Shown here: piece by piece, positions 12,056-24,710 of the stretch
Numbering within the stretch: position 1 is the first letter of the stretch
Layout: each line of letters begins with the position of its first letter
The notes under the pieces: model-generated
Seen by the model: the letters and a program-made list of their open reading frames with translations, nothing else
What the model was told of the DNA's origin: nothing
Databases searched by the model: none
Assembly (NCBI GenBank): GCA_028714075.1
Contig: JAQTMZ010000003.1
Coordinates: 62,001-126,000, forward strand
Source: Gallionella sp.
GTDB taxonomy: Bacteria > Pseudomonadota > Gammaproteobacteria > Burkholderiales > Gallionellaceae
Direction of reading: 5' to 3'
Length of the DNA stretch: 64,000 nt
Translations under genes and position numbers: made by a program

Positions 12056-12196
12056 GGGTACCTCTATAAATTCAGATTTCATCCCAACTGCTGCGTTGCG
12101 GAAAAAATTTCTTGCTTACATATTATCCATATGCGGCGCGGCGGAATTTTTTCCGCGCCTTGCATTTGGGCGAACTCTGAATTTCTAGAGGCACCC
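12056..12196. mobile_element. MITE-like element, copy A (141 bp)
   Basis: The element begins gggtacctctataaattcag and ends with an approximate complement, ...ctagaggcaccc, giving imperfect terminal inverted repeats of about 24 bases. It encodes no protein. A second copy of the same length lies at 24570-24710 in the same orientation, with about 85-90% identity by eye. Copy A fills the space between serS and the channel gene almost exactly. I see no clear target duplication here. Confidence 0.85.
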
Positions 12197-12198
12197 AA

Positions 12199-13488
12199 TT
12201 AGCAAATGAGTTTTTCCAGCCCGCCCATGTAAGGGCGCAGCACGCTGGGGATCACCACGCTGCCGTCGGCCTGCTGATAGTTTTCCAGCACCGCCACCAG
12301 CGTGCGCCCGACCGCCAGGCCGGAGCCGTTCAGCGTGTGCAGCAATTCCGGTTTGCCCTGCGCGTTGCGGAAGCGCGCCTGCATGCGGCGCGCCTGGAAC
12401 GCCTCGAAGTTGCTGCATGACGAGATTTCGCGGTAGGTGTTCTGCGCTGGCAGCCACACTTCGATGTCGTAGGTGAGTGCGGCGGAAAAGCCCATGTCGC
12501 CGCTGCACAGCTTGACCACGCGATACGGCAGGCCGAGTTTTTTCAGGATGGTCTCGGCATGGCCGAGCAGCTCTTCCAGCCCCTCGTAGGATTTTTCCGG
12601 ATGCACGATCTGCACCAGCTCCACCTTATCGAACTGGTGCTGGCGGATCATGCCGCGCGTGTCGCGCCCGTAGGAACCGGCCTCGGAGCGGAAGCACGGC
12701 GTATGCGCGACATACTTCAGCGGCAGTTTTTCCAGCGCCACGATCTCGTCGCGCACCATATTGGTCACCGGCACTTCGGCGGTGGGGATCAGGTAAAAAT
12801 TCTGCTCGCCCTCTTCGCCCATCTGGCGCGGTACGCGAAACAAATCTTCCTCGAATTTCGGCAACTGCCCGGTGCCGCGCATCGAATCGGCATTGACCAG
12901 ATACGGTACATACACTTCGGTATAGCCGTGCTGATCGGTGTGCGTGTCGAGCATGAACTGCGCCAGCGCGCGATGCAGCCGCGCTAGCCCGCCCTTCAGC
13001 AGCGAGAAGCGCGCGCCGGAAATCTTGGCGGCGGTGTCGAAATCCAGCCCCAATCCTTCGCCGAGGCTGACGTGATCTTTTACCTCGAAATCGAATTGTG
13101 GCGGCGAGCCGACCTTGCGCACTTCCAGATTGTCGGCCTCCGATTTGCCCACCGGTACGCTGTCGTGCGGCATGTTGGGAATGACCGAGAGGAACGCATT
13201 CAGCTCCTGCTGTACCTGTTCGAGCTGCGCTTCTAGTTGCTTGAGTTCATCGCCCAGATTGGCCACCTCGGCCATGATCGTTGTGGTGTCCTCGCCTTTC
13301 GCCTTGGCCTGCCCGATCAGCTTGGACGAGCTGTTGCGCTTGGCCTGCAATTCCTGGGTGCGCGTCTGGATGGTCTTGCGTCCGGCTTCCAGTTGCGCAA
13401 ACTTCGCGCTGTCCAGCACAAAACCGCGCGTGGCGAGGCGTGCCGCCACGCCTTCCGGATCATTGCGTAATAATTGAATATCCAACAT
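12199..13488 (-). CDS. serS: Seryl-tRNA synthetase
   Basis: This 429-residue class II synthetase charges tRNA-Ser. The N-terminal region (about 30-105) is the long antiparallel coiled-coil arm that reads the variable arm of tRNA-Ser. Motif 2 is present ([20 protein letters not shown]), as is motif 3 ([16 protein letters not shown] ending with PYMGG). Length equals that of E. coli SerS (430). The stop codon lies three bases from MITE copy A. It is followed upstream by a methyltransferase gene on the same strand, 11 bases away. Confidence 0.97.
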
Positions 13489-13499
13489 GCTGCGCTTCC

Positions 13500-14234
13500 T
13501 TATTTGACGGCGGAGACGACGATGGTACGCCCCAGCCGGATGATTTGCGAATTGTGTTGCGCCACATAGGGTTCATTCTCCTTGCCCAATGTGCGATAGC
13601 GGTTGCGCTCCAGGCGCAGGAACTGGCCCCAGCCAAAACTGACCAGCGGCGCGAATAAAATACCCAACAGCCGCGAGCTGCTTTGCAGTTTGTCGGTATC
13701 CAGTTGCAGGTCGCGGAAATCGTAATCCAGCATGGCGTGCGCCAGATAGAAGTACGGGATGGGGGTGATATGTCCGCCGGTGTGAAAGCGATCCTGATTC
13801 TTCACCGGCAGCGGGCCGAACAGGTTGGTGAATCCGCAAACCAGATAACGCAGGCGCGATTTCATGTTGAGCACGTTGGGCGTGGTGACCACCATCAGCC
13901 CGCCGGGTTTCAGCACGCGGCGGATCTCGCGCAGCACGGCGCGGTAATTCTCGACATGCTCCAGCACTTCGGAGCAGGTGACCAGATCGAAGCTGGCATC
14001 GGGATACGGCAGCGGATGGGTGTTGAGGTCGAGCTGTGTTATCGGTACATCCTTGAGCGCAAAACGCTCGATATGGTAATCGCAAGCCTCGGCCTGCATG
14101 TTCGGCCAGCTCTGGCGCAACAAGGCGAGCAAGTCGCCGCTACCCGCACCGATGTCCAGGCAGCGCGGCGCATCATGCTTCAGCCGCTGTTTGACGACAC
14201 GCTCGACAGAACAATAAATCGCATCATTACACAT
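13500..14234 (-). CDS. Class I SAM-dependent methyltransferase (Methyltransf_11 type)
   Basis: This is a 244-residue soluble methyltransferase. SAM-binding motif I is [15 protein letters not shown], the acidic residue after beta-2 is in EACDYH, motif post-I/II is [16 protein letters not shown], and motif III is [16 protein letters not shown]. The C-terminal third carries no clear substrate signature. The family methylates lipids, sugars or small molecules, and the substrate here is unknown. It lies between rarA (9 bases upstream) and serS and is probably co-transcribed with both. Confidence 0.82.
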
Positions 14235-14243
14235 TGATTTTCT

Positions 14244-23247: not shown

Positions 23248-23282
23248 TTACTTCCTCAATAATAAAACCAGCCATGCACGTT

Positions 23283-23369
23283 CCCCTCTCCTCAATCCTC
23301 TCCCGCAAGCGGGCGAGGAAGCAAACGAGAAAAGCAATTGTTTATTCCTGCGGGCGAGGAAGCAAACGA
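23283..23369. repeat. CTCTCCCGCAAGCGGG palindrome and 19-bp direct repeat upstream of bioH
   Basis: In the bioF-bioH gap, cctctcccgcaagcgggcga forms a hairpin of the family also seen at 32341-32378. Positions 23310-23328 and 23351-23369 are identical 19-base direct repeats (cgggcgaggaagcaaacga), 41 bases apart in register, which suggests local duplication. Confidence 0.75.
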
Positions 23370-23389
23370 ATCGCTGCACGAATTTTTGG

Positions 23390-24544
23390 TTACTGTGCAA
23401 GTTCATGCAGCACCTCAATCAAGCGTGCCACGTCATCCACGCTGTGTGCGGCGGACAGGGTGATGCGCAGGCGCGCCGTGCCTTGCGGCACGGTGGGCGG
23501 GCGGATCGCCGCGACCCAGATGCCGCGCTTGCGCAGCGCCTCGCTCAACGCCAGCGCCGCATGGTTGTCGCCGACCAGCAGCGGCTGGATCGCCGTAGCC
23601 GACGGCATCAATTTCCGCGGCAAATCGGCCAGCCCGTTGCGCAATTGCGCGATCAATTTGCGCAGGTGCTCGCGCAACGCATCGCCCTGTTCGACAAGTT
23701 TCAAACTTTCCAGCAGCGCATTGGCCAGCGCGGGCGGTGTGGCCGTGGTGTAGACATAGCTGCGCGCATGGTTGATGAGCGTGTCGATCACGGCCTGTTC
23801 CGCCGCGACAAATGCGCCGGATACCCCGGCCGCTTTGCCCAGCGTCGCCATGTAGATGATGCGCGGTGACGTGATGCCGAAATGCGCCAGCGACCCGCGT
23901 CCCCGTTCGCCCAGCACGCCGAAGCCGTGCGCATCGTCAGCCAGCAGCCACGCATCGTGCCGTTCGCACAATGCCAGCAGCTCTGGCAAGGGCGCGAGGT
24001 CTCCGTCCATGCTGAACACCGCGTCGGTGACGATGAGTTTGCGCCCGCTTCCGGCCTGTTCCAGCAATTGCGCCAGTTGCGCCATGTCGTTATGGCGGTA
24101 ACGCTTCACCGTGGCGCGCGACAGCAGCATCGCGTCGTTCAGCGACGCATGGTTGAGCTTGTCGGCGAATACCGTATCGCCCTTGCCGACCAGCGCCTGA
24201 ACCGTGCCGAGGTTGGCCATGTAGCCGGTGGAAAACAGCAACGCGGCAGGCTTGCCGGCGAATGCCGCCAGCGCCTGTTCCAGTTGATGGTGCGCGACGC
24301 TGTGCCCGCTCACCAGATGCGCCGCGCCGGCACCTGCGCCATATTGTGCCGCGCCCTGTTGCAGCGCGGCGACGAGCTGCGGGTGGTTGGCCAGGCCGAG
24401 GTAATCGTTGCTGCAAAATGCCAGGTAGGGTTTTTCCCCGATAACGATATGCGGTGCCTGCGGGCCTTGCAGCACTTGCCGCCGGCGCATTAACCCGAGG
24501 GCGGCGCGTTCGTCAAGCTCGCGTTGTAATTCTGTGTACGGCAT
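23390..24544 (-). CDS. bioF: 8-amino-7-oxononanoate synthase
   Basis: This 384-residue PLP enzyme condenses pimeloyl-ACP with L-alanine to give KAPA. The fold-type I signatures are SNDYLGLANHPQLV, HLVSGHS (the family GSGGSR-type loop), FSMDGDLAPL, LLADDAHGFGVLGERGRG, and the Schiff-base lysine in TLGKAAGVSGAFV. E. coli BioF is also 384 residues. It is the first gene of bioF-bioH-bioC-bioD. MITE copy B begins 25 bases upstream of its start and ends before the divergent pyrE. Confidence 0.96.
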   Translation of the reverse strand: MPYTELQRELDERAALGLMRRRQVLQGPQAPHIVIGEKPYLAFCSNDYLGLANHPQLVAALQQGAAQYGAGAGAAHLVSGHSVAHHQLEQALAAFAGKPAALLFSTGYMANLGTVQALVGKGDTVFADKLNHASLNDAMLLSRATVKRYRHNDMAQLAQLLEQAGSGRKLIVTDAVFSMDGDLAPLPELLALCERHDAWLLADDAHGFGVLGERGRGSLAHFGITSPRIIYMATLGKAAGVSGAFVAAEQAVIDTLINHARSYVYTTATPPALANALLESLKLVEQGDALREHLRKLIAQLRNGLADLPRKLMPSATAIQPLLVGDNHAALALSEALRKRGIWVAAIRPPTVPQGTARLRITLSAAHSVDDVARLIEVLHELAQ

Positions 24545-24569
24545 CAGTTAAACCAATCTGTCATATCAA

Positions 24570-24710
24570 GGGAACCTCTAAAAATCCACATTTCATCCCA
24601 ACTGCTGCGTTGCGTAAAAAATTTCTTGCTTACATATCATGCATATGCGGCGCTGCAAAATTTTTTGCGCGCCTTCCATTTGGGCGAAATCTGAATTTTT
24701 AGAGGCTCCC
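24570..24710. mobile_element. MITE-like element, copy B (141 bp)
   Basis: This copy has the same 141-base length and plan as copy A at 12056-12196. It starts gggaacctctaaaaatccac and ends tgaatttttagaggctccc. The interior shares catcccaactgctgcgttgc and a central atgcatatgcggcgc block with copy A. It is flanked by tcaa on both sides, a possible 4-bp target duplication. It occupies the bioF-pyrE divergent region, so it lies just upstream of both genes. Confidence 0.87.

Follow-up and report, generated by a model that had tools for sequence, protein, structure and literature searches.

A mobile 141-bp palindromic element of Gallionella whose ends may double as Shine-Dalgarno and stop parts of gene junctions

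Several families of small non-coding repeats have been described in bacteria. MITEAba12 from Acinetobacter is a miniature inverted-repeat transposable element (MITE) that is short and non-coding, has inverted ends common to an insertion sequence (IS) family with the similarity limited to these ends, and occurs across a bacterial family (PMC6382973). The ERIC, RUP, BOX and Correia repeats are small, mostly intergenic, folding and multicopy, some of them crossing genera, and their reported effects include promoters, IHF sites, RNase cleavage and fusions of open reading frames (ORF) (PMC10969869, PMC2229807, PMC3049150). The ATR repeat of Neisseria meningitidis, a beta-proteobacterium, is a MITE of 181 bp whose ends are inverted repeats (PMC5383966). 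The element described here was found twice in a stretch of 64,000 nucleotides from Gallionella sp. (contig JAQTMZ010000003.1, positions 62,001 to 126,000 of the forward strand), the whole of which is termed the window. It is a 141-bp palindrome, here called the 141-bp element, and its two copies are copy A and copy B.

The 141-bp element resembles MITEAba12 in being short and non-coding and in sharing only its ends with an IS, whereas MITEAba12 has 113 bp, 9-bp target duplications and a weak predicted structure, and the available part of its description does not mention a ribosome-binding role (PMC6382973). The likeness to ERIC, RUP, BOX and Correia lies in size, intergenic position, folding and copy number; a Shine-Dalgarno (SD) role of the ends, as proposed here for the 141-bp element, is not noted in the available parts of those reports, the sequence comparison with them being that made through Rfam. 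The ATR repeat differs, according to the available part of its report, by its 13-bp ends and by lying mainly between convergent genes (PMC5383966). A MITE with an IS5-like partner is a known kind of element, and what is new here are the SD-like ends at start codons. The open-access literature searched yielded no report of the 141-bp family and none in which MITE ends serve as ribosome-binding sites; an earlier description in subscription papers is possible.

The preferred reading, with a probability of roughly 0.72, is that the two copies belong to a MITE family moved most likely by IS5-family transposases acting on the same ends, and that these ends double as SD and stop parts of gene junctions. 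The features concerned, with TIR standing for terminal inverted repeat, are the following.

12056..12196, plus strand: copy A, 141-bp palindromic element, filling the junction of serS and an ion-channel gene
12056..12071, minus strand: left TIR of copy A, reading ATTTATAGAGGTACCC on the minus strand; by the geometry of the sequence, GAGG at 12064-12061 stands 7 nt before the channel-gene ATG (12053-12051)
12181..12196, plus strand: right TIR of copy A, 3 bases from the serS stop codon (12201-12199, minus strand)
12115..12138, plus strand: core of copy A, CTTACATATNANNCATATGCNGCG
24570..24710, plus strand: copy B, 141-bp element, between the divergent genes bioF (minus) and pyrE (plus)
24566..24569: left target duplication of copy B, TCAA
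24711..24714: right target duplication of copy B, TCAA
24570..24585, minus strand: left TIR of copy B, reading ATTTTTAGAGGTTCCC on the minus strand, 5 nt before the ATG at 24564-24562
24629..24652, plus strand: core of copy B
11271..12053, minus strand: ion-channel gene (PF07885), its start codon 2 nt outside copy A
12199..13488, minus strand: serS (TIGR00414), next to copy A on its upstream side as the genes are read
24544..24564, minus strand: 6-codon ORF (MTDWFN), starting 5 nt outside copy B, its TGA overlapping the bioF ATG

The two copies lie in one orientation and are identical at 126 of 141 positions without gaps. Their TIR match each other (GGGTACCTCTATAAAT and GGGTGCCTCTAGAAAT in copy A, GGGAACCTCTAAAAAT and GGGAGCCTCTAAAAAT in copy B), and an imperfect palindrome spans the full length of each. 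The G+C content is 46% in copy A, 43% in copy B and 58% in the window. No gene was seen within the element; mechanically listed ORF run across both copies. The description of two equally long, equally oriented non-coding elements with matching ends and interior, given in an earlier note on this DNA, is thus borne out. The same note had taken them for members of a non-autonomous transposable family, and the sequence occurs in about 31 places of the genome to which the window belongs (G000) and in 26 of 61 genomes. It is accordingly not restricted to the two loci, a restriction that the note had named as speaking against such a family.

Mobility is indicated by target duplications and empty sites. 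From 126 matches to the core, 83 had both ends (52 of exactly 141 bp) and 65 entered the duplication statistics, with at most two mismatches per end and flanks of 8 nt. An exact 4-bp duplication borders 34 of these 65 complete copies, against 2.8 expected in shuffles, and a 5-bp duplication none of them; in a larger set the exact 4-bp duplication is found in 103 of 202. The TCAA pair of copy B, which had been proposed as a target duplication, fits this family-wide pattern. The consensus of the flank is T-T-A-A, often followed by G.

At the serS/channel junction, several relatives without the element have the serS stop codon on or adjoining the channel ATG, where the window holds copy A. These junctions read TAAATG (L140, L141, L146, L158), TAGATG (L138, L142) or TAATG (L155), so that the comparison of orthologous loci proposed earlier does yield empty sites for copy A. 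In a further relative (L139, genome G021) the junction carries an element with a foreign insert, stemming from the same insertion event as copy A or from another. The reverse case is found at cobO/cobB, where G000 is empty (TAATG) and G008 has the element. Between bioF and pyrE, G008 and G016 lack copy B; their spacers differ, and this is not a clean empty site. At the place of copy B, L169 has a different palindromic repeat (GAACGTGTTTTAAAA .. TTTTAAAACACGTTC). Presence of the 141-bp element is patchy across congeners. Short length without a transposase gene, TIR, duplications of fixed length, dispersed copies and empty sites are all observed, and the window repeats are firmly identified as copies of a mobile, non-coding, palindromic 141-bp MITE.

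The second part of the preferred reading concerns the sequence of the ends. In the outward direction the terminal repeat reads TTTTTAGAGGNNCCC, an SD-like sequence. Neither this property nor the stop-start insertion sites treated below appear in the earlier note. Start codons were counted outside the ends in a discovery set of 146 elements (271 ends flanked by 450 bases or more, loci selected by the core pattern included) and in a held-out set of 77 new elements (153 ends). The latter came from 100 further places fetched regardless of their flanks, the other places being dropped as holding no complete new element or a repeat of a known one. In the discovery set, 30 ATG codons opening at least 120 codons lie 0-5 nt outside an end (14 of them at exactly 2 nt), 2 lie at 6-10 nt, and 0.8-1.7 per nt are found beyond. 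In the held-out set the corresponding figures are 24 at 0-5 nt, including 11 at 2 nt, then 1 at 6-10 nt, and 0.4-2.0 per nt farther out. Where the ATG lies 2 nt outside, 7 nt separate it from the end of GAGG, a usual SD spacing. The 53 near-start genes fall into 50 protein clusters and are therefore mostly independent. Beyond the opposite end of the element, SD-like motifs accompany 12 of the 53 near-start ends and 23 of the 371 others (p 0.0004), as expected for a displaced native site; stretches farther away show no difference.

The rival that has to be weighed most closely at this point is an ordinary MITE whose start-codon pile-up reflects target-site preference, namely an AT-rich site followed by G, which is common at compact junctions, with GAGG as a by-product of recognition by the transposase. 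The targets do resemble TTAA, and 42% of 424 ends have G at flank base 5. A first null model, which contained only the preference seen in the 4-bp duplication, was replaced once this G preference emerged; under the simpler null the excess at 0-5 nt persists in both sets for ORF limits from 60 to 300 codons. The superseding null is built on ten flank positions of every end and was run both with and without mirrored upstream context. It predicts 8.7% of first ATG codons at 0-5 nt, whereas 30 of 87 are seen in the discovery set and 23 of 58 in the held-out set (p 1.9e-11 and 1.6e-10). At 6-10 nt, on the other hand, there are only 1 and 1 against 7-8.2% expected (p 0.005 and 0.04 for 8.2%; 0.012 and 0.07 with upstream context). 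ATG codons with an ORF of at least 60 codons number 11.0 per nt at 0-5 nt against 2.6 per nt, and they are enriched beyond ORF-less ATG codons (odds ratio 2.76, p 2.7e-6). More start codons stand at SD spacing from the ends than target preference predicts, and target preference as the whole explanation is considered rather unlikely. The position statistics suggest that the ends may function as ribosome-binding sites.

The other side of the junction was examined through upstream genes. Among the near-start ends with enough flank, 36 of 52 are preceded by a co-directional ORF of 100 codons or more whose end lies inside the element or at most 60 nt outside it, and in 10 of the 52 the stop of such an ORF falls within the final bases ahead of the element (TGAT, TAAT and similar). 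Some of these insertions sit in stop-start overlaps of the type TGATG or TAATG. Over all ends, upstream stops gather at positions -1, 0 and +1 and at TIR position 12 (18 of 226), these being raw counts. Copy A has the same arrangement: the serS TAA, the element, and then AGAGGTACCC-AA-ATG of the channel gene.

The DUF2065/hisZ junction offers different states of one site. Of 35 matching genomes 25 were read, sorted by eye and subsequently checked by script. Eight have tight empty junctions (L460, L462, L466, L467, L471, L472, L474, L476) and four have complete elements (L452, L464, L468, L470), L468 with GGGG instead of GAGG. Another four retain the outgoing end only (L461, L463, L465, L473), with 2-3 mismatches; in these, 6-7 nt separate GAGG from the ATG, and an incoming TIR is absent within 500 nt. 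L454 has AGAGG, is otherwise doubtful and is kept outside this count of four. There are also four remnants without GAGG (L453, L455, L456, L459) and four other junctions (L457, L458, L469, L475).

Several observations weigh against the preferred reading. The flanks of copy A are ATTT and AATT, which is not an exact duplication. ATG codons without an ORF are also raised next to the ends (7.5 per nt at 0-5 nt against 4.9 per nt), and target preference explains part of the pile-up. Exact outward TIR in 38 genomes, counted with no ORF required, have an ATG at 0-5 nt in 39 places and at 6-11 nt in 20 (controls 0). An intact GAGG is present at 42 of 53 near-start ends, compared with 235 of 371 others (p 0.03), and in the held-out set at 19 of 23 compared with 73 of 130 (p 0.02), a modest difference. 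The TTAA-like targets themselves contain TAA, and the four hisZ remnants mentioned above lack GAGG. Of the partnerless TIR-like sites read in G000, only 3 of 19 are followed at 0-5 nt by an ORF of 60 codons or more, which speaks against a general rule of end retention. In the predicted fold of copy A the outgoing SD would pair with the incoming end in the full transcript and be hidden unless opened; opening by the upstream ribosome is therefore proposed.

The mechanism under the preferred reading would run as follows. The non-autonomous 141-bp element, with inverted ends of about 16 bp (GGGNRCCTCTANAAAT), inserts at TTAA-like sites with a 4-bp duplication. The outgoing end sets GAGG 5-10 nt ahead of a start codon lying 0-5 nt outside, and the inward end can stop the incoming gene, either by TAA at TIR positions 10-12 or by a flanking TA together with the first G (TAG). 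Insertion into a TGATG or TAATG overlap retains both reading frames and would stand in for the displaced ribosome-binding site, and such insertions would therefore be tolerated and retained. A ribosome that completes the upstream gene reaches one foot of the hairpin and might then open it, freeing the SD at the other foot. If the ends act as ribosome-binding sites, this would explain how transposable elements enter the stop-start overlaps of operons and give a route by which transposon ends replace native ribosome-binding sites. The distance of start codons from element ends would also be a countable signature, applicable to other MITE families. A further step is put forward only tentatively: the element could act as a gene junction that moves, with ends under selection to stop the incoming frame and start the outgoing one, a hairpin that couples the two translations, and an outgoing end domesticated by hosts, as at hisZ. 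A selfish element of this kind would reach the densest parts of operon-rich genomes cheaply.

The candidate partner belongs to the IS5 family. Proteins with PF01609 are present in 17 of 38 genomes of the genus, and among 30 such loci fetched one complete element was recovered: L092 in genome G005, 1279 bp long, with the ends of the 141-bp element and TTAA on both sides. Its transposase has 363 amino acids (NF033581, IS5 family, 289.1 bits against a cut-off of 140; PF01609). At E 1e-30 this protein is matched in 4 of 61 genomes (G005, G018, G051, G057). In G051, a genome of another family, nine places match it at E below 1e-100, with 74-75% identity over residues 11-222; in 8 of the 9 both ends lie 1334-1335 bp apart, and 5 of these 8 have an exact 4-bp duplication. 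The transposase in G051 (e.g., L316) is split over two frames of 302 and 169 codons, and because the nine copies share this split it is perhaps a programmed frameshift. In G057, L317 has similar ends (CCTCGAA) and an AGAT duplication.

G005 and G051 hold the 141-bp element together with a same-ended IS5-family element. The latter (L092 and the copies of about 1335 bp in G051) shares TIR and 4-bp duplications with the 141-bp element and differs in its 1279-1335 bp, its transposase gene and its unrelated interior; the 141-bp element, unlike L092, encodes no IS5-family DDE transposase. The 141-bp element is likely moved in trans by such an IS5-family transposase. For the transposase with the same TIR that the earlier note had envisaged, G005 and G051 supply examples, and in G000 none was found (no PF01609 match, and no match to the L092 transposase at E 1e-30). 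The copies of G000 may be stranded for now. Descent by simple internal deletion from an IS5-family element would likewise produce shared ends, here over about 16-25 nt. Such an origin is improbable, since BLAST of four copies (A, B and two of G051) against both IS matches best at the ends, with short, weak matches farther in (best E 0.012); the similarity is essentially confined to the terminal 16-25 bases.

The arms of the hairpin co-vary. Four predicted folds give full-length hairpins of about -50 to -63 kcal/mol, and structure was counted in 77 distinct copies of 141 bp picked independently of the core pattern. Helices were defined from single-sequence folds, and shuffling leaves the relatedness among copies in place. 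With this scope, the outer helix has 98 cells with double Watson-Crick changes, where shuffles reach no more than 50 and slid registers no more than 13; the inner helix has 76, where shuffles reach no more than 36 and one slid register is nearly equal (68). Conservation averages 0.885 in the core, 0.90 in the TIR, and 0.78 and 0.83 in the arms. The exact core is kept in 46 of the 77 copies, a measure not derived from the pattern-selected loci L195-L314. The RNAalifold consensus of 54 copies (52 of them pattern-selected) was uninformative.

Stable hairpins, co-varying arms and a conserved core would also suit a sequence retained for its function as a structured regulatory RNA or as a bidirectional terminator, with mobility secondary. 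This is judged very improbable, given that scans around copies A and B found no promoter- or terminator-like site, that Rfam covariance models run at gathering threshold over the whole window gave no match at the copies, that presence is patchy among congeners, and that 4-bp duplications flank the element. The sole Rfam match in the window is a tRNA gene at 34212-34284 (plus strand).

BLAST with copy B gives 37 matches in G000 (2.83 Mb), which make up 25 places, some of them partial; the TIR pattern adds six inverted pairs, and the total of about 31 counts partial copies. With at most two mismatches this pattern occurs 84 times in G000, against 27 for the reversed control. Among the 61 genomes, G000 included, the 26 with matches are 25 of the 37 of the genus and G051, at most 14 candidates being scored per genome; G051 has at least 40 matches of about 72-78% identity. 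In species-level genomes the core pattern occurs in at least 120 stretches. The titles among the matches listed are Gallionella, Sideroxydans, Nitrosomonas, Methylotenera, Sulfuriferula, Sulfuricella, Nitrotoga, Hydrogenophilales and Iodobacter, together with broader labels such as Proteobacteria. Gallionellaceae and Iodobacter were confirmed as Betaproteobacteria, and the remaining taxa are presumably Betaproteobacteria as well. The core pattern gave 0 stretches in viral contigs, and copy B had no match in plasmids.

Some copies carry nested inserts. One type of about 36-39 bp (GCGAGCATCCGC..GCGGATTGCCTGCTTACCCC) is found in the 179-180-bp copies L226, L237, L242, L247, L255 and L290, from Nitrosomonas, Sideroxydans and Gallionella contigs, with varying position and orientation. 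A second type (..AACCT.AAGGT..CACTGAAAC..) extends L196, L204 and L220 to 186-187 bp. In Gallionella sp. isolate S40-4 several contigs start or end about 10-40 bases from the core (L201, L230, L231, L245, L246, L251, L261), as though the repeat had interrupted assembly. Next to copy B, the 6-codon ORF upstream of bioF can also be read in the relatives L168 (MTGWFN) and L169, its stop codon overlapping or abutting the bioF start, and it is possibly a leader peptide.

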